From a virus, in IMG/VR virus record IMGVR_UViG_3300006790_000135, positions 1 to 21,488 of that record: a stretch of 21,488 nt of DNA, one strand, 5' to 3'. The first letter of the stretch is position 1, and each line of letters begins with the position of its first letter. The notes below the pieces were generated by a model. The model saw only the letters and a list, made by a program, of their open reading frames with translations, did no database searches and was not told the origin of the DNA. The position numbers and the translations under genes are program-made. Positions 2,935-16,641 of the stretch are shown one piece after another.

Positions 2935-3372
2935 ATGGCAATATCATCAGCGGTTTGTAACAGCTTTAAACAAGAGATCCTGGTTGGTACTCACAACTTT
3001 ACTGCATCTTCTGGAAATACTTTTAAAATTGCATTGTATACAAGTTCAGCATCTTTAGGTGCGAGCACAACAGCTTATAGTTCATCAAATGAAATTTCAA
3101 ACACATCAGGTTCAGCTTATTCAGCTGGAGGAAAAGCTTTAACAAGTGTTACACCTGTACTAGATGGATCAACTGCAGTTTGTGATTTTGCAGATATTTC
3201 TTGGTCAACAGCTTCTTTTACAGCAAACGGATGTTTAATATATAACGATACTCAATCTGACAAAGCAGTATGTGTTGTAGCGTTTGGTGGAGATAAAACT
3301 GTATCTAGCGGAACATTCACAATTCAATTCCCTGCAGCAGCAGCGTCAACAGCTATCGTGAGAATAGCATAA
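2935..3372 (+). CDS. Small beta-rich virion or tail appendage protein
   Basis: A 145-residue protein with a GAGGAG site before the ATG. After an N-terminal helix-like segment ending in HNF (residues 1-22) it has FKIALYTSSASLGASTTAYS at about 30-49, then SAYSAGGKALT, FADISWSTASFTANGCLIYN and a C-terminal IVRIA. This order is typical of a conserved phage protein family I know from many marine and soil phages without a firm function. It is Ser/Thr/Ala-rich with no transmembrane segment. It starts a run of fibre-type genes, so a tail or fibre-attachment role is likely. Confidence 0.65.
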   Translation: MAISSAVCNSFKQEILVGTHNFTASSGNTFKIALYTSSASLGASTTAYSSSNEISNTSGSAYSAGGKALTSVTPVLDGSTAVCDFADISWSTASFTANGCLIYNDTQSDKAVCVVAFGGDKTVSSGTFTIQFPAAAASTAIVRIA

Positions 3373-3385
3373 GGAGAAAATCCTT

Positions 3386-4513
3386 ATGGCTGACAAAACA
3401 TTCGTTGTCACCGTTGCCTACGCAGATGGCGGTAATAAATATTTTATAGATGGAGTTCAACAAGACACCGTAATGATCGGTGCTGGTCTTACTTATAAGT
3501 TTGATCAATCAGATGGAACTAACGGAACTCACCCATTAAGATTTTCTACAACAAGCGATGGAACACACGGAGGAGGAAGTGAATATACAACCGGCGTAAC
3601 AGCTGTTGGAACTCCTGGATCATCTGGAGCTTACACAGAAATTTCAGTTCAAAATGGTGCACCTTCAACATTATATTATTATTGTACAAACCATGGCGGT
3701 ATGGGTGGTCAAGCAAATACAGATGGTTGGGGCAGATCACACTATGGACAAATGGATTGGGGCGACTCTAACGTTGTACAAGATGGTTGGGGTAGAAACA
3801 CTTGGAACGATGGAGGTTGGGGTATTGTTGGCACCGTATTACTAGAAGGTCAAGGAGCCACTGTTTCTCTTGGAGATATAACCGTAGAACAAAGACCTGG
3901 TTGGGGTACACTAGACTGGGGTGAAAACGGTTGGGGTACTGTTGAGTCAGCAGTATTTAATTTAACTGCTCCTAGTGCAATGACTTCTAGCGTAGGAGCT
4001 ATAACTCCTGCAGACGTAGTTGGATTAACAGGTCAAGGTGCAACATCTAATGTTGGTGCACCAACAATTATTTTATCACCAACAGTTTCGTTAACTGGAC
4101 AAGCTGCAACTTCTGCAGTTGGAAGTCCTTCTCCAATAGATGGAGAAATTGTTGGATTAACGGGTCAAGTTGCAACGTCCGCAGTTGGTGGAATAGTTCC
4201 AGATGGTTTATCTTTAGGAATAACAGGTGTAGGCGCAACTACCGGTGTGGGATCAATTACTATTGATGCAATAGATTTAATAAATATTACTGGTGTTGGA
4301 GCAACTTCTGCTGTAGGATCTTTAACAATAGAAATGGCCTATGAATTAACGGGCCAATCAGCAACTTCTGCTGTTGGAACAATAGTTCCTGCAGATGTTG
4401 TAGGACTAACTGGTGTAGAAGCTACAACAGCAGTTGGAAATGTATCTCCGTTAGGATATAAAGATATTGACATAACTGGAAATACAACTTATACAGACGT
4501 AAACGTGGCTTAA
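3386..4513 (+). CDS. Tail fibre-type protein with cupredoxin-like head, Trp-Gly ladder and repeats
   Basis: A 375-residue protein with AAGGAG before the ATG. Residues 1-110 look like a cupredoxin fold: strands around FVVTVAYADGG and YKFDQSDG, then HPLRF with His49, and YYYCTNHGGMGG near the end, giving Cys100-x2-His103-x2-Met106. With His49 this is a complete type-1 copper ligand set. Residues 111-184 hold regularly spaced Trp-Gly pairs (W115, 125, 135, 145, then 173, 178, 183). Residues 152-353 contain nine copies of a repeat like LTGQxATSAVGxI spaced about 20-22 residues, apart from one longer first step. This architecture of a globular head plus repetitive shaft suits a virion appendage. 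Copper binding is a prediction; many viral cupredoxin-like domains may be structural only. Confidence 0.7.
   Translation: MADKTFVVTVAYADGGNKYFIDGVQQDTVMIGAGLTYKFDQSDGTNGTHPLRFSTTSDGTHGGGSEYTTGVTAVGTPGSSGAYTEISVQNGAPSTLYYYCTNHGGMGGQANTDGWGRSHYGQMDWGDSNVVQDGWGRNTWNDGGWGIVGTVLLEGQGATVSLGDITVEQRPGWGTLDWGENGWGTVESAVFNLTAPSAMTSSVGAITPADVVGLTGQGATSNVGAPTIILSPTVSLTGQAATSAVGSPSPIDGEIVGLTGQVATSAVGGIVPDGLSLGITGVGATTGVGSITIDAIDLINITGVGATSAVGSLTIEMAYELTGQSATSAVGTIVPADVVGLTGVEATTAVGNVSPLGYKDIDITGNTTYTDVNVA
3839..4444 (+). repeat. In-frame degenerate tandem repeat, nine units
   Basis: Nine units of about 63 nt encode variants of LTGQGATSAVGSI, starting at residues 152, 193, 214, 236, 258, 279, 301, 321 and 341 of the fibre-type protein. 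The first two are the most diverged. Codon differences between copies show that the protein pattern rather than the DNA is conserved, so the array is old or under selection as a shaft. Confidence 0.8.
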
Positions 4514-5722: not shown

Positions 5723-5737
5723 GAGGATTAAAGTACT

Positions 5738-6241
5738 ATGGCACACTTTGCTGAACTAGAATTAAAACAAGATCCAACAGGTTTCACTACTGAAGACAAA
5801 TACATTGTCAAAAGAGTTGTAGTTATTGGGAACGATGTACCTGCAGCCAATGGTACATTGGAACAACATGACATGCACCCGGATGGAGAGTTTCATTGTA
5901 AAAAACTTTTTAATGGTGGTATTTGGAAACAAACATCTTACAATGGAAATTTTAGAAGTAAGTACGCTGCTAAAGGTAGTGTTTATGATCCTGTTAACGA
6001 TGTATTTTATGGACAACAACCACACGCTTCTTGGACACTAAATACAGAAACTTGGAGATGGGATCCTCCTGTTGCAGCTCCTACAATGGAACAATCTCAA
6101 TATACTCATTCAGATGGAAATCCAGGTACTTACAGATTAGAATGGAGTGAAGCAAATCAACAATGGATTGGCTTTGGAGAAGAAAATGCTCAATTCGAAT
6201 GGGATCCAGATACATCTTCTTGGAATGCTACGGGAGGATAA
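5738..6241 (+). CDS. MAHFAEL-type virion protein
   Basis: A 167-residue protein with AGGAGG before the ATG. The start MAHFAELE, the VKRVVVIGNDVP strand, then CKKLFNGGIWKQTSYNGNFR (about residues 54-73), a YDPVNDVF segment and SWTLNTETWRWDPPVAAP (98-115) form a pattern I know from conserved structural proteins of cyanophages and other marine phages. The C-terminal part repeats W-x2-x-N-x-W-like motifs (LEWSEANQQWIGFG, FEWDPDTSSWN), which give repeating Trp-containing hairpins. Precise function is unknown; a tail or appendage role is likely from the neighbours. Confidence 0.7.
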   Translation: MAHFAELELKQDPTGFTTEDKYIVKRVVVIGNDVPAANGTLEQHDMHPDGEFHCKKLFNGGIWKQTSYNGNFRSKYAAKGSVYDPVNDVFYGQQPHASWTLNTETWRWDPPVAAPTMEQSQYTHSDGNPGTYRLEWSEANQQWIGFGEENAQFEWDPDTSSWNATGG

Positions 6242-6244
6242 CCC

Positions 6245-8200
6245 ATGGCTGGAATAAATAAACTTACAAAAATTAGTACAGCTGAAGGAGGAATGATTGG
6301 TGTAGCCAATTGTGCTTCTTTTGGAAAATGTAAAACTACAGTTTACAACGCTACTAACAGTAGTGCACCTCTTGGAACTGGAACAAGATTAATGGATTAT
6401 ATGGTTATCGCTGGTGGCGGAGCCGGTGGTTTAGCTGGAGGATCTGGCGGCGGAGGAGCCGGTGGATATTTAAATTCTGTTGCTGGAGAAAACTCTGGTG
6501 GCGGTGCAACAACTACTTTAAAACCTGTATCAACAAAAGGAAATACAACTCTTAACGTTCAAGTTGGTGGTGGCGGAGCCGCACAAACAACCGGTGGTAA
6601 CGCTGGAGGCAATGGAACTAATTCATCCATTGCAGGAACTGGAATGACAACTATCACAGCCACTGGAGGTGGCGGTGGCGGTGGAGATTCAGATAACGAA
6701 ACTGACTCTGAAGCTAGACCAGGTGGATCTGGTGGAGCAAGTGGAGGAGCAAGTTATCCTTTCGGTGTTGGAACTGGTGTGGCTCTTCAAGGTAATAACG
6801 GTGGAGCTGCTAGTGGACCTGGTGGATCAAACGGCGGCGGAGGCGGCGGAGGAGCCGGAGCTGTCGGAGGAAACGGATCAGGGACATCTTCTGCAGGAAA
6901 CGGTGGAGCAGGTTTAACAAGTTGTATTACAGGATCACCTGTCACAAGAGGTGGCGGTGGTGGCGGAGCTATTTATCAAAACACAAAAGGTTCTGGTGGA
7001 TCTGGTGGTGGAGGAGCTGGAGGAAGACAATCACCTGTTCAAGCAGGTTCTGCTGGATGTGCTAACACCGGAGGCGGTGGTGGCGGAAAATGGTCTTGTT
7101 CACCTGGATACGCTGGTGGATCTGGTGTCGTTATCGTAAAAGAAAAAAATAATGCAAGAGGAGTTTGGCCAATGTCTCAAGCTGGGACTGCACAATCTGA
7201 TGGAACATGGCCTGATGGAACAATTATACAATCCGTTACATTTAACTATTTAGTTGTTGCTGGCGGAGGAGCTGGTAAGAGTTTTGGTGGTGGCGGAGCC
7301 GGAGGTTATAGAGCTTCTGGTTATGGACCTTCACCTTTACAAGGATGCGCAATTACTTTGTGCTCTTCATCAAGTTTTACAATTACAGTTGGAGCCGGAG
7401 GTGGAAACGCTTGCGGTACAGCTTATCCTGCACCCCCTGCATCTGACCCAGATGGTTCTGGTGCTGGTTATGGAAACGTGTCATCTATTAAATCAGGATG
7501 CACAGTTATTATTCAATCATCAGGTGGTGGTTATCCGTTAAATGCATCTTGTGGTAATCCATGGAATGCAAACAATGGTGAAAGAGGAGGACCTGGAGGA
7601 TCAGGTTCTGGTGGATACCCATCTGCAATTTCTGCTAAAAGACCAGGAGGATCTGGTAATTCTGGAGGTTTTTCACCACCAGAAGGAAATAGTGGTGGAA
7701 CTGGAGACTATCCAGATAACAGAGGCGGCGGAGGCGGTGGCGGTGCTACTGCTAACGGATCTAACGGATCAGGATACCCAGGAGCAGCCGGAGGAGCTGG
7801 AGCACCAAATACAATTTCAGGTTCAGATGTATCTTATGCTGGTGGCGGAGGTTCTGGTACAGACAGAGGTTATCCAGGTTCTAACCCTGGACCAGGAGGA
7901 GCTGGTGGTGGCGGAAACGGCGCTGCAGGACAACCTTGTGGTTTAGCTACATCAGGAACAGCGAACACCGGAGGTGGTGGTGGCGGAGGCACTGGAGGAC
8001 CTACGTCTTATGGAGCACCAACTTATTTAGCTCCATGTGGAAAATCTAAATATGGATCAAGAGGTGGATCAGGTATCGTTATTGTAAGATCACCTGCAGG
8101 ACACCCATTAAGTGTATCACCAGGAACTAACCAAGTTACTTGTGTTGGTGGTCATTCTGTTGCTACATTTACTGTTTCTGGAACATTGACTGTAAACTAA
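6245..8200 (+). CDS. Glycine-rich tail fibre or adhesin with two tandem domains
   Basis: A 651-residue protein with GGAGG overlapping the previous stop. Two domains begin with an aromatic strand (MDYMVIAGGGAG at 50-61, FNYLVVAGGGAG at 333-344), continue as Gly-rich loops including GGGGAGGY, and end with ANTGGGGGG followed by GGSGVVIVKE (to 300) or GGSGIVIVRS (to 616). A short C-terminal tail contains ATFTVSGTLTV. The plan of an edge sheet holding many glycine loops recalls Gly_rich domains of phage fibres and the polyglycine sandwich of T-even gp38 adhesins, so receptor contact is a reasonable inference. Unusual points are about 13 cysteines and seven Tyr-Pro pairs (171, 394, 430, 458, 489, 511, 543). 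It lies directly upstream of the oxygenase island, and its final codons contain the island promoter. Confidence 0.75.
   Translation: MAGINKLTKISTAEGGMIGVANCASFGKCKTTVYNATNSSAPLGTGTRLMDYMVIAGGGAGGLAGGSGGGGAGGYLNSVAGENSGGGATTTLKPVSTKGNTTLNVQVGGGGAAQTTGGNAGGNGTNSSIAGTGMTTITATGGGGGGGDSDNETDSEARPGGSGGASGGASYPFGVGTGVALQGNNGGAASGPGGSNGGGGGGGAGAVGGNGSGTSSAGNGGAGLTSCITGSPVTRGGGGGGAIYQNTKGSGGSGGGGAGGRQSPVQAGSAGCANTGGGGGGKWSCSPGYAGGSGVVIVKEKNNARGVWPMSQAGTAQSDGTWPDGTIIQSVTFNYLVVAGGGAGKSFGGGGAGGYRASGYGPSPLQGCAITLCSSSSFTITVGAGGGNACGTAYPAPPASDPDGSGAGYGNVSSIKSGCTVIIQSSGGGYPLNASCGNPWNANNGERGGPGGSGSGGYPSAISAKRPGGSGNSGGFSPPEGNSGGTGDYPDNRGGGGGGGATANGSNGSGYPGAAGGAGAPNTISGSDVSYAGGGGSGTDRGYPGSNPGPGGAGGGGNGAAGQPCGLATSGTANTGGGGGGGTGGPTSYGAPTYLAPCGKSKYGSRGGSGIVIVRSPAGHPLSVSPGTNQVTCVGGHSVATFTVSGTLTVN
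6392..8089 (+). repeat. Duplicated glycine-rich domain
   Basis: Two related domains lie at 6392-7141 and 7244-8089. The DNA around the end of each is still similar: 7061-7086 and 7961-7986 are the same 26 bases except for two mismatches and are exactly 900 bases apart. Interiors have diverged strongly, with different loop lengths. Confidence 0.7.
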
Positions 8201-8222: not shown

Positions 8223-8732
8223 ATGTGGGTCAAGAAATTTAGAAAGCATAAGACTTTAAAGAAAAAGTTATTATCATTAATTACTAAAATGCCTTCGCAT
8301 TTTAAGTCTGATAAATCTTTTGTTAAATCTGATTGGACAGTGCCAAGAGATACACCAAGAGAATATTTAAAATTATTTTATCAAGAAGTAGGAGATTTGA
8401 TGGTAGAGACTGCAGAAGAATTTGGTTGTAATACTTGGCGAATACACAACGGTTGGTATAATCAATATTCTAAAAACAATAACCATCATTGGCACACTCA
8501 CCCAGAATCAAACTTATCAGCAATATATTTTTTAGAACTACCTAGTAAAGAATTAATGACAGAGTTTAAAACTAAAATTAAATTAAATGTAAAAGAAGGA
8601 GACATATTATTTTTTCCATCTTATATGTTACATAGAGCACCTGTTAATAATACAAACAAAAGAAAAACAGTTATTGCTTTTAATTGTGATTTTCAATTAA
8701 TACCTACAGAATATTTAGGCAGGCATAAATGA
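8223..8732 (+). CDS. 2OG-Fe(II) oxygenase, H-x-H class (1)
   Basis: A 169-residue predicted 2-oxoglutarate/Fe(II) dioxygenase of the 2OG-FeII_Oxy_5 type. The signature is HWHTHPESNLSAIYFL with His91-x-His93 as the first metal pair, then EGDILFFPSYMLHRAP with His137, and KRKTVIAFN with the basic residue (Arg147/Lys148) expected to hold 2-oxoglutarate. The N-terminus is strongly basic (residues 4-16). No Shine-Dalgarno site precedes the ATG, and a TGA lies in frame shortly upstream at 8205, so no earlier ATG start exists. The stop overlaps the next start as ATGA. Substrate is unknown. Confidence 0.8.
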   Translation: MWVKKFRKHKTLKKKLLSLITKMPSHFKSDKSFVKSDWTVPRDTPREYLKLFYQEVGDLMVETAEEFGCNTWRIHNGWYNQYSKNNNHHWHTHPESNLSAIYFLELPSKELMTEFKTKIKLNVKEGDILFFPSYMLHRAPVNNTNKRKTVIAFNCDFQLIPTEYLGRHK

Positions 8733-9208
8733 GTTTTAGAGTCATAGATAATTTTTTATCTAAAAAAAATTACAAAACAATTACGAAAACTTTTACTAAG
8801 TTAAAAGGAAACATACCTGTTAAATGGTCAGAAACAGATTATCGTAAACATGTGTTTTTAATTGAAGCAGCTAAAACATATGACTTTACAAAATATAAAG
8901 GTTTTGAGGAATGGAGTCAAAACAACACTCAATGCAACCCACACGTCGATAAAGACGAGGGCTATTATCAAAAGACAGGTAAATATAGATATCCAATATG
9001 TTCTTTAATATTTTATATAGAGGTAAAAAATTTAAGGGGTGGTGAATTAATACTAGCTGGAGATGTAATAAAACCTAAATCTAATAGACTAGTTATATTT
9101 GATCCTGGTCTACATCATTCAGTTGAATCTTTTAAAGGAACCAGAAGAGCTTTCTTAGTTAACCCTTGGACACATAAACCAGAAGCGTTTAAAAATGAAA
9201 TTGTATAA
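8729..9208 (+). CDS. 2OG-Fe(II) oxygenase, H-x-D class, prolyl-4-hydroxylase-like (2)
   Basis: A 159-residue predicted dioxygenase. Visible signature: NPHVDKDE with His72-x-Asp74, a following SLIFYIEV strand, RGGELIL at 103-109, and NRLVIFDPGLHHSVESFKG with the distal His at 130, then Arg139/Arg140 in the 2-oxoglutarate position. This arrangement is that of the prolyl 4-hydroxylase-like superfamily. Protein length is short for the family, so only the catalytic core is present. Start ATG overlaps the previous stop as ATGA. The real substrate could be a peptide, sugar or small molecule. Confidence 0.8.
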   Translation: MSFRVIDNFLSKKNYKTITKTFTKLKGNIPVKWSETDYRKHVFLIEAAKTYDFTKYKGFEEWSQNNTQCNPHVDKDEGYYQKTGKYRYPICSLIFYIEVKNLRGGELILAGDVIKPKSNRLVIFDPGLHHSVESFKGTRRAFLVNPWTHKPEAFKNEIV

Positions 9209-9647
9209 AAATATTTTAGAAGAAAAAGAACGAAAGAAACTATTAAAATTTGTAAAAACAAAAATTCGATATTGGAATGACAAAGTCCCTGGTTTACAAA
9301 CACCTATGGATTTACATACCCACCCTGAAACTCAATATTTCTATAAAAAAATTTTACAAAAATATTTCAAAGATATGTCAATACAATATTCTTGGGCTAA
9401 TTATTCAGAGGGGGATATTATAAATTGGCACAATCACCCTACCTCTGTAATATCTGCTGTTTACTTTTTAAAAAATCCTGATAGTCTAGGAACCATATTT
9501 AGAAATGAGAAATATAGTTATGACAAAATTACATCTACCAAATGTCCTGAAAATTCTTTATTGGTATTTGATGCAAGTAAAACACACTCACAACCATACT
9601 CTCCTAAAAAAATTAAAAGGTTTTCAATCGCAATAGATTTAATATGA
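9195..9647 (+). CDS. 2OG-Fe(II) oxygenase, H-x-H class (3)
   Basis: A 150-residue predicted dioxygenase, the smallest of the island. Signature: INWHNHPTSVISAVYFL with His79-x-His81, then ENSLLVFDASKTHSQPYS with His131, and KRFSIAIDL with Arg142. An additional LHTHPETQ motif at 40-47 resembles the metal-binding sequence but lies too early to be the usual site. The start lies 14 nt inside the preceding gene and has no strong ribosome site, so its translation is probably coupled. Confidence 0.75.
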   Translation: MKLYKNILEEKERKKLLKFVKTKIRYWNDKVPGLQTPMDLHTHPETQYFYKKILQKYFKDMSIQYSWANYSEGDIINWHNHPTSVISAVYFLKNPDSLGTIFRNEKYSYDKITSTKCPENSLLVFDASKTHSQPYSPKKIKRFSIAIDLI

Positions 9648-10321
9648 ATTTAAAAAACGCATATTGGTATTTTACATCTAGATTAGGAGATCGTTTTTGT
9701 GACGATGTAATAAAACTTGCAAATTCTAGAAAAGAATTAATAGGTGTAACAGGAGGTGTGTCAGATAAAATTAGAAAACGAAACAAAAATAAAAAAATTA
9801 TAGACCATAAAGACGTTCTAAAAAATATAAAAAAAAGTGATATAAAAAATTTAAAGAAACAAAGAGATTCAAATATAGTTTGGTTAGAAGATAGATGGAT
9901 TTATGATGAGATTACTCCTTTCTTTCACATGGCAAACAAGAACGCTGGTTGGAATTTTCAAATTGATTATTTTGAGTCTATGCAATTTACTAAATACAAA
10001 CCCGGTCAATTTTATGATTGGCATCAAGACCCAATGCCTGTGCCATATAATAATCCACAGAACGTTAATTTTCATAACAAAATTAGAAAAATATCTGGCA
10101 TAATACAATTATCCGATCCAAAAGATTACAAAGGTGGGGAGTTAGAAATACAGCCAAGAATGCATGCAGATGCAGGGCATGTAATACAAACAAAAAAACA
10201 TTTTAAACCTAGAGGAAGTATTATCATATTTCCGTCACACTTGTGGCATAGGGTTAAACCTGTAACGAAAGGAACAAGATATTCATTAGTGATTTGGTCA
10301 TTAGGATATCCATTTAGATAG
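9644..10321 (+). CDS. PKHD-type 2OG-Fe(II) hydroxylase (4)
   Basis: A 225-residue protein that follows the PKHD-type hydroxylase pattern closely. It has RDSNIVWLEDRWIYDEI at 74-90, then the aromatic core NAGWNFQIDYFESMQFTKY, YDWHQDP with His127-x-Asp129, RKISGIIQLSDPKDYKGGELE at 148-168, and FPSHLWHRVKPVTKGTRYSLVIW with His202 and Arg212. The GYPFR ending is also typical. Residues 41-74 are a Lys/Arg-rich stretch not usual for the family. The start overlaps the previous stop as ATGA. It is the best conserved oxygenase of the island. Substrate not known. Confidence 0.85.
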   Translation: MNLKNAYWYFTSRLGDRFCDDVIKLANSRKELIGVTGGVSDKIRKRNKNKKIIDHKDVLKNIKKSDIKNLKKQRDSNIVWLEDRWIYDEITPFFHMANKNAGWNFQIDYFESMQFTKYKPGQFYDWHQDPMPVPYNNPQNVNFHNKIRKISGIIQLSDPKDYKGGELEIQPRMHADAGHVIQTKKHFKPRGSIIIFPSHLWHRVKPVTKGTRYSLVIWSLGYPFR

Positions 10322-10322
10322 C

Positions 10323-11027
10323 ATGTCAAAAAAAGATTTACTTCAAACATCTATATATTTTCAATCACCTGTGTATCATATTGAAGTACCTGAATTAGTA
10401 AAATCTGTAGATAAAGTTTGTAATAAATATATTACACAAGCTCAAAAAAATAACGAGAAAGTAGTTAAAGAAAGAGAAAAAAAATGGAAAAAGAAAGTAG
10501 GAGATATAACTATGTCTCATCATTCTACAAGTTTAATTGGAGACCCTGATTTAAAAGAACTTAGAGATTATATTGGAGGAACAAGCTGGAATGTTTTAGA
10601 TAGTTTTGGTTATGACATGTCTGGGTACGAATTAATGTGGACAGAGCTATGGGCGCAACAATTTTCTAAAAAAGGTGGTGGACATCACATGGGTCATATA
10701 CATTATGACAATCATATATCTGGTTTTTATTTTTTAAGATGTAGTGAAAGAACTGCGGTGCCTTTCTTTAACGATCCTAGAATTGCAAAAACAATGAATG
10801 ACTTACCGGTAAAAGATCCTGTCGGTGTTTCTATGGCTAGTTCTCTCATACATTACAAACCTAAACCAGGAACGATGATATTCTTTCCTGCTTATTTAAA
10901 TCACGGTTTTACCGTAGATGCAGGAGTTGATGATTTTAGATTTATACATTTTAATTTACAGGCAGTAAGAAAGTTATTAACAGATCATTTAAGAAATGAA
11001 GGACCAACACAACCCACAAATAAATAA
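10323..11027 (+). CDS. 2OG-Fe(II) oxygenase, H-x-H class (5)
   Basis: A 234-residue predicted dioxygenase of 2OG-FeII_Oxy_5 type, and the longest of the H-x-H group. Signature: GHHMGHIHYDNHISGFYFL with His125-x-His127, VPFFNDPR at 146-153, then KPGTMIFFPAYLNHGFTVD with His194 and FRFIHFN with Arg206. The N-terminal third (about 25-65) is a charged, probably helical stretch rich in Lys and Glu. It starts one base after the upstream stop and lacks a strong ribosome site. Its C-terminus runs 32 nt into the next gene. Confidence 0.8.
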   Translation: MSKKDLLQTSIYFQSPVYHIEVPELVKSVDKVCNKYITQAQKNNEKVVKEREKKWKKKVGDITMSHHSTSLIGDPDLKELRDYIGGTSWNVLDSFGYDMSGYELMWTELWAQQFSKKGGGHHMGHIHYDNHISGFYFLRCSERTAVPFFNDPRIAKTMNDLPVKDPVGVSMASSLIHYKPKPGTMIFFPAYLNHGFTVDAGVDDFRFIHFNLQAVRKLLTDHLRNEGPTQPTNK

Positions 11028-11580
11028 TATTTTTTCTTCTTTTTTAATAGAGAAAGAAATAGACCTAGATCATGATAAGGTGACAGATATGTGTGCTGAT
11101 GCACTAGAAACTTCTGATGATTATCATCAAAAAAATATATTTCATAATCCTAAACTTATGGATAAATTTAATAAAGTATTTATTGAAATAGATGAAATAG
11201 CACAACAAGCACATAAACTTTTACAATATAAAAATAATACAAGGCAGGTATGTATAGATGCTTGGATAAATGATTTTGGAGCATTTAATATTTCTATGCC
11301 TCATCAACATCCAACAGCTGATTTATCAATAGTTTATTTTCCGTACGCACAAGAAGGGTGCAGCAACTTACAATTATTAAATCCAAATTCTAAATTACAG
11401 TATGTAATACATGACGAAATGGTAGAAGATTGGAATCATTACAATTCTTTTACTTGGGATGTAGTTCCTAAAACTGGTAAGGTTGTTGTGTTTCCAGGTT
11501 ATTTAATGCATTACGTTAAACAAAACACATCAAACAAAAAGAGAGTATCAATAGCATTTAACTATAAGGTAGCATGGTAA
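10996..11580 (+). CDS. 2OG-Fe(II) oxygenase, H-x-H class (6)
   Basis: A 194-residue predicted dioxygenase. Signature: ISMPHQHPTADLSIVYFP with His103-x-His105, then GKVVVFPGYLMHYVKQN with His172 and KKRVSIAFN with Arg183. The first 32 nt overlap the upstream gene in another frame. The chosen ATG gives an NIFSSFLI segment at residues 11-18, a plausible first strand; the first ATG after the overlap would remove it. An acidic N-terminal region (21-45) precedes the core. Confidence 0.75.
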   Translation: MKDQHNPQINNIFSSFLIEKEIDLDHDKVTDMCADALETSDDYHQKNIFHNPKLMDKFNKVFIEIDEIAQQAHKLLQYKNNTRQVCIDAWINDFGAFNISMPHQHPTADLSIVYFPYAQEGCSNLQLLNPNSKLQYVIHDEMVEDWNHYNSFTWDVVPKTGKVVVFPGYLMHYVKQNTSNKKRVSIAFNYKVAW

Positions 11581-12119
11581 AAAATTTACTATCAATAGAC
11601 ATAGATTGGGTTGGTCCTCCAAGAGATGCTAAAGAATTGCTAGAGGTTTTAGTCCCTATCTTTAAAAAAAATAAATTTAAAAAAATAGTTTTAGCGCAAT
11701 CACATAAAGAAATAAGTAAGATTGTAGATACTTTATCTGAGCCTGTATATTGTGTAAACGTAGACCACCATCATGACATACAATACCTACAATCTGAACC
11801 TTTAGAAGCGGGATTCTTATCGGGTAATTGGTTGGGTCATTATATGAAAAGCGGTAGAATTACAGGATGCACTTGGATAGCTAATTACAATTCTGCTTTT
11901 AATAGATATCAAGACTGGAGAAAAGATTTTGTCTTATTGAACAACGACGTAATAGATACTAAATTAGATATAAAAGAAATAGCAAAGTTTGATTACGACT
12001 ATTTTTTTATGTGTAGATCTTTTCATAATCATGAAGAACGTAATTGGACAGCTCTTCAAACTTTTGATGCAATAGAAGTAATATTAAAAAATTTACAAAA
12101 TGATAAAAATAAAAAATAA
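11574..12119 (+). CDS. Arginase/deacetylase-like metallohydrolase candidate
   Basis: A 181-residue protein clearly unlike its oxygenase neighbours. It has SIDIDWVGPP at 7-16 (Asp9, Asp11), IVLAQSHKEI with His44, and VNVDHHHDIQY at 62-71 (Asp64, His65-67, Asp68), followed by GNWLGHYMKSG and CTWIANYNS. Paired Asp strands and an Asp/His cluster of this sort are seen in arginase-fold metal hydrolases and in the UPF0489 family, some members of which I recall as peptide arginases. I cannot confirm membership. It starts 7 nt before the upstream stop with AAGG at a good distance, and its own end overlaps the next gene by 20 nt. Confidence 0.5.
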   Translation: MVKNLLSIDIDWVGPPRDAKELLEVLVPIFKKNKFKKIVLAQSHKEISKIVDTLSEPVYCVNVDHHHDIQYLQSEPLEAGFLSGNWLGHYMKSGRITGCTWIANYNSAFNRYQDWRKDFVLLNNDVIDTKLDIKEIAKFDYDYFFMCRSFHNHEERNWTALQTFDAIEVILKNLQNDKNKK

Positions 12120-12588
12120 TTTTTTAAATAAAAAAGATTTTAATCATATTAGAGACGTAATGTTAGGTCCTAATTTTCCTTGGTACTATAACAAAACTAA
12201 AGTAGATATAGAAGGTAAAGACAATTTATACAACTATCAATTAACCCATACTTTTTTTATAGACGGTTCTATTAATTCTGGTGGGTATAATTTATTAGAA
12301 CCTGTTTTAAAAAAATTAAAAGTAAAAGAATTAATAAGAATAAAAGCCAACTTAGTGCCACGAACATCTAAGATCCACAGGTTTGAAAAACATACAGACC
12401 AAGACTATGATTGCAAAGGTGCCATACTGTATATCAATAGTAATAATGGTTGCACTATATTTGAAAAAAATAAACATGTAACGTCAAAAGAAAATAGAAT
12501 TGTGTTGTTTGATGCAAACAAAAATCATCAGGGCACAACTTGCACGGATGAAAAAATTAGAGTATTAATAAATTTTAATTATCAATAA
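12100..12588 (+). CDS. 2OG-Fe(II) oxygenase, H-x-D class (7)
   Basis: A 162-residue predicted dioxygenase of the type seen in cyanophages. FPWYYNK at 26-32 is followed by RIKANLVPRTSKIHRFEKHTD with His98-x-Asp100, a GAILYINSNNGCTIFE segment (107-122), and ENRIVLFDANKNHQGTTCTD with His143, then KIRVLINFN with Arg154. The GGxL motif of prolyl-hydroxylase relatives is replaced by NGCTIF. The start lies 20 nt inside the arginase-like gene with no ribosome site visible, which suggests translational coupling. Confidence 0.8.
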   Translation: MIKIKNNFLNKKDFNHIRDVMLGPNFPWYYNKTKVDIEGKDNLYNYQLTHTFFIDGSINSGGYNLLEPVLKKLKVKELIRIKANLVPRTSKIHRFEKHTDQDYDCKGAILYINSNNGCTIFEKNKHVTSKENRIVLFDANKNHQGTTCTDEKIRVLINFNYQ

Positions 12589-12591
12589 AGT

Positions 12592-13272
12592 ATGAACTGG
12601 AAAAAAAATAATTACACAGTTATTAAAAAAGCCATAGACCCAAGTATGGCAGAGTTTTTAAAAAATTATATTCTTTTAAAAAGAAAAGTTTTACAAACTT
12701 TTATGACTACACAATACCTATCTGAGTTTAACACTGATTGGGGCACATGGGCTGATCCACAAGTGCCAGGAACATATTCTCATTACGGAGATATAGCTAT
12801 GGAAACATTATTAGCAACATTAAAACCTAAAATGGAAAAAGTTACAGGCACCAAATTACTTGAAAACTATTCTTATACAAGAGTGTATAAAGTAAAAGAT
12901 ATTTTACGAAGACACAAAGATAGATTTAGTTGTGAAATATCTACTACACTTAATTTGGGTAGCGACCATCAGTGGCCAATATATATAAACCCAAAGCAAG
13001 AAGAAGGAGGCCACAATGAAACAACGGGAGAATATATGCCCTCTACATCTAAAGGTGTTAAAGTAAATTTAAAACCTGGTGACATGTTAGTATATCGTGG
13101 TGATTTGTTAGAGCATTGGAGAGAACCTTACACAGGTAATTATTGTGCACAAGTATTTTTACATTATAACAATGTTAAAACACCGGGAGCTGAAGAAAAC
13201 GCTTTAGATAAAAGACCTCATTTAGGGCTACCTTCAAAATTTAAAAGGGTTGAAAAAAAGATTCCTAGATAA
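12592..13272 (+). CDS. 2OG-Fe(II) oxygenase, H-x-D class (8), atypical
   Basis: A 226-residue predicted dioxygenase. NYSYTRVYKVKDILRRHKDR contains His108-x-Asp110. It is followed by SCEISTTLNLG with HQWPIYI, then KPGDMLVYRGDLLEHWREPYTG with His175. The final strand reads YCAQVFLHYN, and no Arg or Lys sits at the usual distance after the distal His; Arg177 is the nearest. A loop at 134-153 (KQEEGGHNETTGEYMP) is inserted between core strands. I recall relatives of this form in marine phages. Loss of the usual 2-oxoglutarate contact may mean a different binding mode. Confidence 0.75.
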   Translation: MNWKKNNYTVIKKAIDPSMAEFLKNYILLKRKVLQTFMTTQYLSEFNTDWGTWADPQVPGTYSHYGDIAMETLLATLKPKMEKVTGTKLLENYSYTRVYKVKDILRRHKDRFSCEISTTLNLGSDHQWPIYINPKQEEGGHNETTGEYMPSTSKGVKVNLKPGDMLVYRGDLLEHWREPYTGNYCAQVFLHYNNVKTPGAEENALDKRPHLGLPSKFKRVEKKIPR

Positions 13273-13275
13273 CGT

Positions 13276-13890
13276 ATGTTTCCTCAAACAATTCCCATGT
13301 TTGCTAAATGTTTTTATATTAACAAAATTGACATAGACTCACATAAAATTTTAAAAGGTATAACTGAAAAATTTATACCATCTGCAGACGGAACTAATGT
13401 TGATCTTAGTCAGACATCTATTGATAAAAATGTTTTAAATAAAACAAAATGGAAAGCATTAAAGAATTTAATAATGAAAGAACTTAAAACATATACAGAA
13501 AATATTTTAGAGTATGACAATAAATTTAAGATGACTACATCGTGGTTTACAAGTTCTGGTCCTGCAAAAGAATCTGAGTATCATTGTCATAAGAACTCTA
13601 TGATAAGTTGTTGTTTATATATTCAATGTAATCAGGATTCAGGAAATATATCTTTTATGAATTATAAACAAGATGATATGTTTCAATTAAAACCAAAAAA
13701 ATTTAACATGTATAATAATGATAGTTATGAAATTATACCGCAACCAGGTATGATTTTATTTTTTCCAAGTCAAATTCATCACAAGATATTAACAAACAAA
13801 TCTAACTTAATTAGGTATTCTCTAGCATGTAACTTTGTGCCCACAGGAGATATCTATTATAAGGACACGGATAGCTATTTAAAAATATGA
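13276..13890 (+). CDS. 2OG-Fe(II) oxygenase, H-x-H class (9)
   Basis: A 204-residue predicted dioxygenase. Signature: SEYHCHKNSMISCCLYI with His103-x-His105, SGNISFMNY at 122-130, then QPGMILFFPSQIHHKILTN with the distal His at 169, and LIRYSLACNF with Arg180. The start MFPQTIPMFAKCFYI resembles the N-terminal strand of the 2OG-FeII_Oxy_5 group. The site carries an unusual Cys between the two metal-binding His residues and two more Cys (112-113) nearby. Confidence 0.8.
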   Translation: MFPQTIPMFAKCFYINKIDIDSHKILKGITEKFIPSADGTNVDLSQTSIDKNVLNKTKWKALKNLIMKELKTYTENILEYDNKFKMTTSWFTSSGPAKESEYHCHKNSMISCCLYIQCNQDSGNISFMNYKQDDMFQLKPKKFNMYNNDSYEIIPQPGMILFFPSQIHHKILTNKSNLIRYSLACNFVPTGDIYYKDTDSYLKI

Positions 13891-14444
13891 AAGATTTTCC
13901 TATTATAAGAATAAAAGATTTTTATGATTTTAAAAAAGGCGAACATGCAAAAGTTCGACGTAGCATAATAAGCCAAATAAAAAGAGCTGATTGGGATAAT
14001 AATTATGTTATTGAAAAAGATAGTTTTGCAAAAAAATTATATAAAAAATTTTTAGAAACGGCTCAAGAACATTTAAATTCTTTTACACTTCGTTCAAACA
14101 ATAGAGATAATTGTTATGCTGTAGCTTCTAATAAAGATTTTATACCCTCTGTTAATTGGCATAATCATTTAATGACCTCAACTATTAACTCTGTTTATTA
14201 TTTTCACATACCAAAAGATATGAAAGGTGGAGACATAGAATTTAAAAGTAGAAGAAAAGATATATTAAAAGTGACGCCTAAAACAAATGAATTATATATA
14301 TTTCCATCTTGGTTGTGGCATAACCCTATAAACGTAGAGTCAAAAGAATTAAGAATATCTATAAATATGGAAATCTGCACCATGGAAAAAGTTGGAGACA
14401 TCTTTAAACCGCTAGAAATCTACGATAAATCTGCTATAATCTAA
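13887..14444 (+). CDS. 2OG-Fe(II) oxygenase, H-x-H class (10)
   Basis: A 185-residue predicted dioxygenase and last gene of the island. Signature: SVNWHNHLMTSTINSVYYF with His92-x-His94, KGGDIEFKSRR at 113-123, then NELYIFPSWLWHNPINVES with His145 and LRISINME with Arg156. The usual Pro after the second His is Leu and the loop before the next strand is one residue longer than in its relatives. The start overlaps the previous stop as ATGA. Its last codons hold a TGCTATAAT extended -10 sequence likely to serve the tail hub gene. Confidence 0.8.
   Translation: MKDFPIIRIKDFYDFKKGEHAKVRRSIISQIKRADWDNNYVIEKDSFAKKLYKKFLETAQEHLNSFTLRSNNRDNCYAVASNKDFIPSVNWHNHLMTSTINSVYYFHIPKDMKGGDIEFKSRRKDILKVTPKTNELYIFPSWLWHNPINVESKELRISINMEICTMEKVGDIFKPLEIYDKSAII
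14432..14440 (+). promoter_or_regulatory. Extended -10 promoter candidate before the tail hub gene
   Basis: TGCTATAAT at 14432-14440 is a perfect extended -10 box. A weak -35 candidate, TAGAAA (4 of 6), lies 16 bases upstream at 14413-14418. The predicted start is near 14447, 17 nt before ATG at 14464. The element sits in the end of the last oxygenase gene. Confidence 0.4.
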
Positions 14445-14463: not shown

Positions 14464-16641
14464 ATGCTACAAAAATTAGGCTTTGCCCCAGGATTTAATA
14501 AACAAGTAACGGAAACCGGAGCCGAAGGGCAATGGTTTGATGGTGATAACGTACGTTTTAGATATGGTTCACCTGAAAAAATAGGTGGTTGGGAGCAATT
14601 AGGACAAGATAAGTTAACTGGTGCTGCTAGAGCCCTCCATCATTGGGACGATAACTCAGGTATTAAATACGCTGCTATTGGCACCAATAAAATTTTATAC
14701 GTATATTCTGGGGGTACATACTATGACATACACCCTATTAGAACTACTTTAACAGGAGCTAATTTTACCAGCACAGCTTCATCAACCACAGTTACGGTAA
14801 CCTGCACCGGGTCTCATGGATTATTAGAGGATGGTATTGTCTTGTTTGATAGTGTAACAGGCTTATCAGGTTCTACTTTTACCAATGCAACTTTTGAAGA
14901 TCAAAAGTTTATGGTTACTTCTGTACCTACATCTACAACATTTACGATTACTATGGATGCTCAAGAAACTGGCACTCCGTTAACAACTGCAGGATCGGCT
15001 TCTGTGTTGTGTTATTATGACGTAGGGCCATCACAACAACTAGGTGGTTTTGGTTGGGGTACAGGTCTTTGGTCAGGAACTGCATTAGGACCAGCAACAA
15101 GCACTCTTGCAACTGCCATAACCGATTTAACTACAACCGATATTGTATTAACCAGCACTTTAGCTTTTCCTTCAACTGGAGAAATAAGAATTGGAACGGA
15201 AGATATAAGTTTTACATCTAACGACACTTCTACAAATACTTTAAGCGGAGGAGCCCGAGGTGTTAATGGAACAACCAAAGCTACTCACAGTGGAGGTGCT
15301 ACGGTCACAAACATATCTGACTTTGTAGCTTGGGGTGAAGCTTCTTCTGCTGACTTTACAATTGACCCAGGACTTTGGATATTAGATAACTATGGTACAA
15401 AATTAATCGCACTTATATACAATGGCGCTTGTTTTGAATGGGACGCAGCAGCTGCTGGATCTACTAGCACAAGAGCTACTCTTTTACCTAATGCGCCTAC
15501 AGCATCAAGACATGTATTAGTATCTACACCGGACAGACACTTAGTATTTTTTGGTACAGAAACAACTGTAGGAAGTTCCAGTACTCAAGACGACATGTTT
15601 ATTAGATTCTCTTCTCAAGAAAGTATTGACCAAACAGACTCATACACGGTTAGAGCAGACAATACCGCTGGTACACAAAGATTGGCTGATGGATCAAGGA
15701 TCATGGGAGCTATCAAAGGTAGGGATGCAATTTATGTGTGGACAGACACAGCCTTGTTTTTGATGAAATTTGTAGGTCAACCATTTACTTTCTCATTTGA
15801 ACAAGTTGGAACTAACTGTGGACTTGTAGGAAAAAATGCTTGTATTGAAGTCGATGGCTCTGCTTACTGGATGTCAGAAAACGGATTCTTTACATATGAT
15901 GGTCAATTAAAATCAATGCCATGTTTAGTTGAAGACTTTGTCTTTGATGATATAAACTTGGTTTCTAGAGACCTTATTAATGCGGGATTAAACAACCTAT
16001 TTGGTGAGGTAAACTGGTTCTATTGCACAACAAATTCTAATCAAATAAACAGGGTAGTTACCTATAATTACCTAGATTCAACACCTCAAAGACCTATCTG
16101 GACTACGGGTACTTTACCAAGAGCTGCGTGGCAAGACTCGGCTGTATTTGAAAGACCTCATGCCACATACTATAATCCTGATAGTAATTCTTCGTACGAT
16201 GTTACTGGTAATACGGATGGATGTACTATATACTATCAACAAGAAACAGGAACCGATCAAGTTGATGCCGGTGGTGTAATCACTGCTGTTATCGCTAGTA
16301 TTACTTCTGGTGATTTTGATATTACACAAAGAAGAGCGGCAACTGGTCAAGCACTTGGTGCACCAGACTTGAGAGGTGATGGAGAATTTATAATGAGAAT
16401 AAGTAGATTTATACCAGACTTTATTAGTCAAACAGGTAACACAGCAATTAAATTTAAAACAAGAATTTATCCAAATAGTTCACAAACTACGAGCACTTTT
16501 TCTTGTGACTCTTCAACAACTAAAAAAGATATAAGAGTAAGAGCCAGACAAATTGCTCTTGAAGTCGCTAATACTGCAGCCGGTGAAGATTGGAAACTAG
16601 GCACGTTTAGATTAGACATACATCCGGGAGGTAGACGATAA
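14464..16641 (+). CDS. Tail hub or nozzle-type virion protein
   Basis: A 725-residue beta-rich protein. The start LQKLGFAPGFNKQVTE, EGQWFDGDNVRFRYGSPEKI and GGWEQLG (residues 2-47) matches a conserved large structural protein of marine podoviruses, in the place of P22 gp10 or T7 gp12. Further recognisable parts are IKYAAIGTNKILYVY (67-81), GFGWGTGLWSG (195-205), LDNYGTKLIALIYNGACFEWD (307-327) and ARQIALEV near the end, a blade-like beta pattern. Two inserted modules are visible: about 93-187, a TxTGSHGL...VTSVPTSTTFTI type, and 212-283, the FPSTGEIRIG...GARGVNGT module shared with two neck proteins. The next gene starts at a TAATG junction. The family match is by memory, not search. Confidence 0.7.
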   Translation: MLQKLGFAPGFNKQVTETGAEGQWFDGDNVRFRYGSPEKIGGWEQLGQDKLTGAARALHHWDDNSGIKYAAIGTNKILYVYSGGTYYDIHPIRTTLTGANFTSTASSTTVTVTCTGSHGLLEDGIVLFDSVTGLSGSTFTNATFEDQKFMVTSVPTSTTFTITMDAQETGTPLTTAGSASVLCYYDVGPSQQLGGFGWGTGLWSGTALGPATSTLATAITDLTTTDIVLTSTLAFPSTGEIRIGTEDISFTSNDTSTNTLSGGARGVNGTTKATHSGGATVTNISDFVAWGEASSADFTIDPGLWILDNYGTKLIALIYNGACFEWDAAAAGSTSTRATLLPNAPTASRHVLVSTPDRHLVFFGTETTVGSSSTQDDMFIRFSSQESIDQTDSYTVRADNTAGTQRLADGSRIMGAIKGRDAIYVWTDTALFLMKFVGQPFTFSFEQVGTNCGLVGKNACIEVDGSAYWMSENGFFTYDGQLKSMPCLVEDFVFDDINLVSRDLINAGLNNLFGEVNWFYCTTNSNQINRVVTYNYLDSTPQRPIWTTGTLPRAAWQDSAVFERPHATYYNPDSNSSYDVTGNTDGCTIYYQQETGTDQVDAGGVITAVIASITSGDFDITQRRAATGQALGAPDLRGDGEFIMRISRFIPDFISQTGNTAIKFKTRIYPNSSQTTSTFSCDSSTTKKDIRVRARQIALEVANTAAGEDWKLGTFRLDIHPGGRR

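Follow-up and report, generated by a model that had tools for sequence, protein, structure and literature searches.

An island of ten predicted 2-oxoglutarate-Fe(II) oxygenase genes that appears to be exchanged together with a glycine-rich fibre gene in a relative of pelagiphages

Introduction

Here, we describe an island of eleven phage genes, ten coding for predicted 2-oxoglutarate (2OG)-Fe(II) oxygenases (O1–O6 and O8–O11) and one for a different candidate hydrolase (X), in the linear 21,488-base IMG/VR record IMGVR_UViG_3300006790_000135, the whole of which was analyzed and is referred to as the window. A block of the window spanning ~5.73–14.42 kb, comprising the entire island and the glycine-rich fibre gene upstream of it, appears to be swapped as a unit between divergent phage backbones, an arrangement that appears to be new. 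With a probability of roughly 0.4, we read the eleven genes as the enzymatic part of a co-inherited, mobile host-recognition module that modifies the fibre.

2OG oxygenases are among the commonest unexplained genes of marine phages (24 in the genome of S-SCSM1; PMC9602691) and are usually filed as metabolic. Their co-inheritance with a fibre gene points to another role that can be tested directly, either in maturation of the virion fibre or in recognition of the host; in cultured phages, candidate substrates adjoin the enzymes.

The window represents part of a relative of the HTVC023P-type pelagiphages, as judged by synteny and a core virion gene: the product of the gene at 14464 (S725) is ~46% identical to the core virion gene product of the Pelagibacter phages HTVC023P, HTVC027P and 023Pt_psg01 and occupies the same slot. 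For this uncultivated fragment, a SAR11 host is probable, as taken over from these relatives.

Results and discussion

Exchange of the fibre gene together with the island

The window was compared with loci from related phages (L numbers), two sets of which give reciprocal identity profiles. Against L005, the backbone genes g3386, fib4526, g5330 and S725 are 95–97% identical, versus 70% for g5738, 72% for the fibre and 56–79% for the island, from which O2, O6, X and O10 are absent. Against L093, L095 and L217, identity is 42–43% for fib4526, 52–53% for the adaptor and 54–60% for S725, versus 83–88% for g5738, 83–86% for the fibre and mostly 69–93% for the island. Sliding nucleotide identity shifts near 5730–5850 and near 14400 in both comparisons. 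Given these contrasts and the same approximate breakpoints, the exchanged unit thus consists of g5738, the glycine-rich fibre gene and the whole island, ~8.7 kb in all. An earlier interpretation made from the window alone, hereafter the sequence-only reading, had taken positions 8223–14444 as the unit; the block that behaves as one begins at ~5730.

Oxygenase divergence follows the fibre and not the flanking virion genes. In Mantel tests, O9 distances correlated with those of the immediately upstream gene (rho 0.33, n = 56), and more strongly where that gene was a long open reading frame (ORF) (rho 0.75, n = 18, of which 16 Gly-rich), with permutation p of about 0.001 or less in each case, although kinship among the sequences makes these p-values optimistic, n is modest and low complexity affects the fibre BLAST scores. 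Within the glyF group the correlation was 0.86, and outside it 0.72; loci found via S725 alone gave 0.73. O9 distances were uncorrelated with those of the backbone (S725, -0.05; adaptor, 0.00; g3386, 0.11), although adaptor and S725 distances are closely correlated (0.93).

Many marine phages have hypervariable tail regions, and the fibre and the oxygenases might merely share a slot between recombination-prone flanks, being exchanged together with no functional link. The approximate breakpoints, common to both comparisons and placed at conserved flanks, fit this account, as does the variable gene content of the slot. We nevertheless consider it unlikely, given that the near-invariant order of O4, O5 and O9 is not predicted for random cargo and that phages of other types also have homologous oxygenase families in the neighbourhood of Gly-rich fibre genes (both below).

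Elsewhere in the window, g2935 (2935–3372) is 84–86% identical in L093, L095 and L217, versus ~42–53% for its neighbours, and may be a second, separately exchanged gene.

Conservation and gene order of the island

Eleven plus-strand ORFs tile positions 8223–14444 between the fibre gene and a tail/stabilisation gene, as the sequence-only reading had it, and the packing is indeed gapless, with neighbouring ORFs overlapping by 4–32 bases or standing 1–3 bases apart. Family matches, conservation and the ratio of nonsynonymous to synonymous substitution rates (dN/dS) rule out chance ORFs. Recent tandem duplication, which that reading had already discounted, is ruled out by the pairwise identity of the ten oxygenases, ~20–30% over the longer alignments.

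The lack of the run as a set in any related phage had been named beforehand as a refutation; the same ordered set recurs in independent contigs. The full eleven-gene set is present in the same order in L088, L090 and L091, and a variant with two O4-like genes and no O10 in L093, L095, L097, L098 and L099. L107 and L005 carry ten and nine oxygenases, respectively, and no X. In the 60-kb relative G001 (bases 1–60000 of its record), every recognized oxygenase sits in the island. The isolates HTVC023P, HTVC027P and 023Pt_psg01 have 3–4 profile-recognized oxygenase genes at or close to the corresponding position. In a set of 60 loci that include both flanks, collected via S725, O9 or X and not an unbiased census, the median is three oxygenases, usually O4-O5-O9. 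O4 precedes O5 in 82 of 82 loci and O9 in 102 of 102, and O5 precedes O9 in 88 of 89. The island genes, with dN/dS of ~0.04–0.25 in close pairs, are evidently under purifying selection. Gene content may grow by accretion onto the O4-O5-O9 core.

Two adjacent O4-like genes, of 184 and 223 amino acids, are found at 9702–10927 of L217 (G001 49702–50927), where they are likely to reflect duplication within the island or a second acquisition; a second adjacent copy also occurs in L093 and L095. In HTVC027P (L084 13295–14956), a three-gene oxygenase island lies on the strand opposite to its flanks.

Identity of the oxygenases

All ten proteins are supported as 2OG-Fe(II) oxygenases, nine from sequence and O9 from its modelled fold, and Fe(II)/2OG-dependent turnover is predicted from family and fold. 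The sequence-only reading had counted ten oxygenases and one unrelated gene, and this count stands: eight of the ten pass curated Pfam cut-offs (O1, O3, O5, O6, O10 and O11 for PF13759, 2OG-FeII_Oxy_5; O2 and O4 for PF13640, 2OG-FeII_Oxy_3), O8 is placed by profile cross-matches and its motif, and O9 by fold. The metal signature, which had been described as common to all, is not uniform. The standard HxD...H triad is present in four proteins (O2, O4, O8 and O9), whereas in six (O1, O3, O5, O6, O10 and O11) the acid is replaced by His, giving HxH...H followed by Arg or Lys. This HxH is essentially invariant across more than 200 relatives (in two of the families, for example, 214 of 215 and 236 of 237 homologues) and is also seen in the solved PF13759 proteins 2rg4 and 3bvc. 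Nine of the oxygenases carry, downstream of the distal His, an Arg or Lys at the position that would bind 2-oxoglutarate, in most cases conserved; O9 lacks it there.

O9 produced no Pfam match. Its AlphaFold2 model, built from a 53-sequence alignment (predicted local distance difference test, pLDDT, 95.2; predicted template modelling score, pTM, 0.90), fits the 2OG fold, which bears out for O9 the double-stranded beta-helix proposed earlier; for the other nine this fold rests on family models. The 50 best Foldseek matches in the PDB, out of 644 at E <= 0.001, are P4H, PHD, PhyH and related 2OG enzymes, and the Foldseek matches include small-molecule and lipid 2OG oxygenases. The HxD...H of O9 is invariant in its family, and a weak TET-like sequence match was also obtained. 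The O4 family profile matches the PKHD-type hydroxylase PiuC in the PDB (4.5e-8), so that the O9 fold and the O4 profile are both nearest to P4H/PKHD-type protein or peptide hydroxylases. HHalign comparisons of the O4 family with that of O8 or O9, made with shallow alignments, gave no significant match, and O8 and O9 therefore rest on the other evidence given here.

These folds bear on a second account of the co-inheritance, in which the enzymes alter a glycan, lipid or receptor protein of the host surface so that the infected cell stops binding the same fibre, and are inherited with the matching fibre as a means of superinfection exclusion or receptor change. Such a role would account for travel with a host-recognition gene and for the usefulness of many different enzymes, and the small-molecule and lipid oxygenases among the O9 matches are compatible with it. 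It is nonetheless rather unlikely in our judgement: the genes stand in a structural operon, where late expression would be expected and exclusion would need earlier expression, and O4 is nearest to PKHD/P4H hydroxylases.

Two of the assignments depart from database labels. O8 falls short of the PF13640 cut-off and belongs to phrog_274, the profile of which also matches O2 (7e-11); its HxD...H...R is nearly invariant in 49 sequences. A T4 endonuclease V (DenV), as the label of that family would have it, was rejected for O8, with no endonuclease V among the PDB matches at E <= 10 and HxD...H...R present instead. The phrog_274 'DNA endonuclease V' is very probably a 2OG oxygenase family. A ferrochelatase was likewise rejected for O9: none was present in a PDB profile search at E <= 1, among the 50 best Foldseek matches or, as a family, among the Pfam matches of 53 homologues. 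The phrog_2954 profile had no match in 14 named cellular control genomes. On the strength of the model, the phrog_2954 'ferrochelatase' is a 2OG oxygenase, a correction that appears to be new and that is of consequence since the family was read as ferrochelatase by Wittmers 2022 (PMC9599517) and in an ISME J 2024 time series (PMC11561400); conclusions on phage haem or iron metabolism that rest on the label therefore need revisiting. In all, phrog_2297, phrog_274, phrog_2954 and phrog_3531, with the labels DNA endonuclease, DNA endonuclease V and ferrochelatase, match island 2OG oxygenases and deserve relabelling.

The DNA-enzyme label of the O8 family, together with some cyanophage 2OG genes that adjoin uvsY/uvsW (PMC9146016), could suggest AlkB/TET-like DNA repair or base modification. 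That label is unsupported, the fold matches of O9 are to prolyl hydroxylases and small-molecule enzymes with the TET-like similarity only weak, and the island sits in the tail region, all of which makes a DNA-directed function very improbable.

Gene X

X itself matches no Pfam or PHROG family, and a search of 50,697 phage records likewise gave nothing. An alignment of 23 diverse homologues from viral contigs contains an invariant N-D-H-H-H-D (NxDHHHD), a His and a near-invariant DxD near the N-terminus. Over the DHHHD region, some homologues have sub-threshold matches to PF00491/PF12640 (E 0.03–0.3), none of which reaches the family cut-off, and a PF12640 search of the viral records with X homologues returned nothing. 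The AlphaFold2 model (pLDDT 82) has ureohydrolases as its best Foldseek matches, with probabilities of 0.84–0.90 but weak E-values of 0.02–0.03. We treat X as a candidate arginase/UPF0489-like hydrolase, a reading that is no more than a lead. A DHH-phosphoesterase, considered from the DHHHD motif, is less likely, with no DHH family among the Pfam matches of the 23 homologues.

X homologues (22–46% identity) stand among 2OG oxygenases in ~9 of ~17 distinct clusters, as judged by eye, a recurrence that appears to be new. UPF0489-type peptide arginases work alongside hydroxylases in pathways for ribosomally synthesized and post-translationally modified peptides (RiPPs) (PMC12707348; PMC10028609). 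Like the peptide arginases OspR and BipC (PMC10028609, PMC12707348), X has a putative DxHxD-type metal motif and a peptide-hydroxylase-like neighbourhood, so that they serve as a model for its predicted activity; unlike them, it falls below every Pfam cut-off and carries its DxD motif N-terminally.

Glycine-rich fibres and oxygenases in other phages

HTVC033P, Mosig, HTVC008M and S-SM1 encode, close to their 2OG islands, proteins of the Gly_rich_2 family (PF21722), to which the fibre belongs. Among 25 phage records picked for oxygenase or S725 homologues and not for Gly-rich genes, 16 carry both. These 16 genomes contain 153 oxygenase matches, of which 36 have a Gly_rich_2 gene within 6 kb, where circular shift gives an expectation of 12.5 (p = 0.0004, an optimistic value given that the phages are related); in the larger myovirus genomes, the count is 28 against 10.2 expected. 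The neighbourhood of 2OG genes in other marine phages is thus enriched in Gly_rich_2 genes, and this too appears to be new. The control fibre family PF13884 was too rare (4 of 25 records) to give a contrast.

In the module as we picture it, the small fibre-region gene, the glycine-rich fibre gene, the ten diverged oxygenases and the candidate arginase-like hydrolase would be exchanged together. During late infection, the oxygenases would hydroxylate or otherwise oxidize side chains of the glycine-rich fibre, and possibly of neighbouring tail proteins, in a chemistry analogous to that of prolyl hydroxylases on collagen-like chains; each enzyme may recognize a different site, and X, if a peptide arginase, would alter arginines. 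Fibre co-inheritance lends indirect support to the concerted modification pathway of the sequence-only reading, the substrate of which we infer. A more specific version, which we put forward more tentatively, is a RiPP-like tailoring of the virion, in which a swappable cassette, with as many as ten oxygenases that each act on a specific site and an enzyme resembling peptide arginases, modifies a glycine-rich receptor-binding fibre; the cassette would recur among podoviruses and myoviruses that infect the most abundant bacteria of the sea. If so, host recognition would hinge on fibre chemistry as well as on sequence.

Several points weigh against fibre modification. The evidence is linkage, from which we infer the fibre as substrate, hydroxylated products and an action of X on arginine; the genes may be inherited together simply because they are physically linked within a recombination hotspot, and the Gly_rich_2 association could reflect a general preference for the tail-fibre region. 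In many islands the first oxygenase is separated from the Gly-rich gene by another short gene, and in several loci the sequence examined contains no Gly-rich ORF. Oxygenases occur with no PF21722 match over the cut-off in Syn30, S-PM2, S-MbCM6, P-SSM7 and others, as well as in HTVC027P, which has three, and some cyanophage oxygenases adjoin DNA-repair genes.

Comparison with known systems

Multi-copy 2OG genes are established in marine phages (Sullivan 2010, PMC3037559), with nine, for instance, in S-SZBM1 (PMC9146016). The sequence-only reading had regarded the density of the island as unmatched. The claim of a densest known island is ruled out by S-SM1 (GU071094), in which nine of the products of an 11-gene, 6.25-kb island that follows the fibre genes (33496–39749) are recognizable 2OG oxygenases, by S-RSM4 (FM207411), with a Pfam run of eight oxygenases plus a phrog_2954 gene at 88.8–95 kb, and by the genome-wide total of S-SCSM1. 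In view of the published accumulations and the S-SM1 island, density alone is therefore not new. Both runs resemble the window in having about nine contiguous 2OG oxygenases and a Gly_rich_2 gene close by; in S-SM1, the oxygenases include homologues of O4, O8 and O9. They differ in belonging to T4-like cyanobacterial myoviruses, with another oxygenase repertoire and no X; the S-SM1 island contains a 233-amino-acid protein of unknown function (phrog_33749).

Also close to the window are the eight non-orthologous 2OG genes that Wittmers et al. 2022 (PMC9599517) reported in HTVC023P-type pelagiphages, the same phage group with the same gene families; one or two 'ferrochelatases' are often found beside them. 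There, the genes were described as 'nearby although not adjacent' and the partner was read as ferrochelatase, whereas the window has ten in an unbroken run with X, the partner belongs to the predicted 2OG oxygenases too, and the set is exchanged with the fibre. In Alteromonas phages (PMC10579305), distant relatives likewise have in common, as one host-recognition module that is exchanged, a fibre and an accessory gene; the partner of the fibre there is a chaperone and here the oxygenase set. A literature search for glycine-rich tail fibres together with 2OG-Fe in phages found no paper joining the two, so the fibre link appears unreported in the literature searched.

As classical auxiliary metabolic genes, the oxygenases would consume 2-oxoglutarate or signal through it, shifting the nitrogen and carbon metabolism of the host during infection. 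This role has been put forward for cyanophage 2OG oxygenases (Sullivan 2010, PMC3037559), and iron-uptake genes are upregulated in pelagiphage infection (PMC12753301). It leaves unexplained why ten diverged enzymes share one operon in fixed order and are exchanged with the fibre instead of with replication or metabolism genes, and we hold it to be quite improbable.

Features of the window and minor observations

Table 1. Genes of the exchanged block and the adjoining backbone gene; enzyme classes are predictions.
Gene	Position	Strand	Description	Evidence
g5738	5738..6241	+	Small 167-amino-acid tail/fibre-region protein; first gene of the exchanged block	Identity contrasts, sliding identity
Fibre	6245..8200	+	Glycine-rich fibre, 651 amino acids, 31% Gly, PF21722 Gly_rich_2/phrog_2295; candidate substrate	Pfam 2.9e-13, PHROG 6.8e-55, composition, co-variation with island
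O1	8223..8732	+	2OG oxygenase, 169 amino acids, PF13759/phrog_81, HxH...H	PF13759 1.4e-13, phrog_81 2.3e-28, motif
O2	8729..9208	+	2OG oxygenase, 159 amino acids, PF13640, HxD...H...R	PF13640 6.3e-7, above cut-off
O3	9195..9647	+	2OG oxygenase, 150 amino acids, PF13759, HxH...H	PF13759 4.8e-8, phrog_81 7e-16
O4	9644..10321	+	PKHD/P4H-like 2OG oxygenase, 225 amino acids, PF13640/phrog_61, HxD...H...R; core island gene	PF13640 4.6e-16
O5	10323..11027	+	2OG oxygenase, 234 amino acids, PF13759, HxH...H; core island gene	PF13759 7e-13
O6	10996..11580	+	2OG oxygenase, 194 amino acids, PF13759, HxH...H	PF13759 6e-18; PDB 2rg4 2e-6, 3bvc 3e-5
X	11574..12119	+	Candidate arginase/UPF0489-like metallohydrolase, 181 amino acids, DxHxD-type DHHHD motif	Motif, sub-threshold homologue matches, weak Foldseek
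O8	12100..12588	+	2OG oxygenase, 162 amino acids, phrog_274 labelled 'DNA endonuclease V'	phrog_274 1e-45, PF13640 0.0019, HxD...H...R
O9	12592..13272	+	2OG oxygenase, 226 amino acids, phrog_2954 labelled 'ferrochelatase'; core island gene	phrog_2954 1.6e-48, AlphaFold2/Foldseek, invariant HxD...H
O10	13276..13890	+	2OG oxygenase, 204 amino acids, PF13759, HxH...H	PF13759 7.1e-16, phrog_81 4.6e-33
O11	13887..14444	+	2OG oxygenase, 185 amino acids, PF13759, HxH...H; last gene of the exchanged block	PF13759 3.7e-9, breakpoint ~14400
S725	14464..16641	+	Virion structural/stabilisation (tail hub) protein, phrog_3287; backbone gene just outside the block	phrog_3287 9e-97

No structured RNA was found in the window. 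Three virion proteins (409–1350, 1350–2147 and 14464–16641) share a similar stretch of ~70 amino acids that ends in a GCTRGxNGT-like motif and is tied by PHROG matches to baseplate and tail fibre proteins. A short, imperfect 30-base tandem repeat lies at 3721–3796, within the tail-fibre-like gene g3386.

HTVC008M (L210 15199–17158) has a further 2OG oxygenase and a tryptophan halogenase between its terminase genes, and a halogenase is likewise found near 2OG genes in S-SZBM1. In the SAR11 phage Mosig EXVC030M (L211 7651–8887), genes annotated as haem oxygenase and phycocyanobilin:ferredoxin oxidoreductase adjoin the 2OG island.

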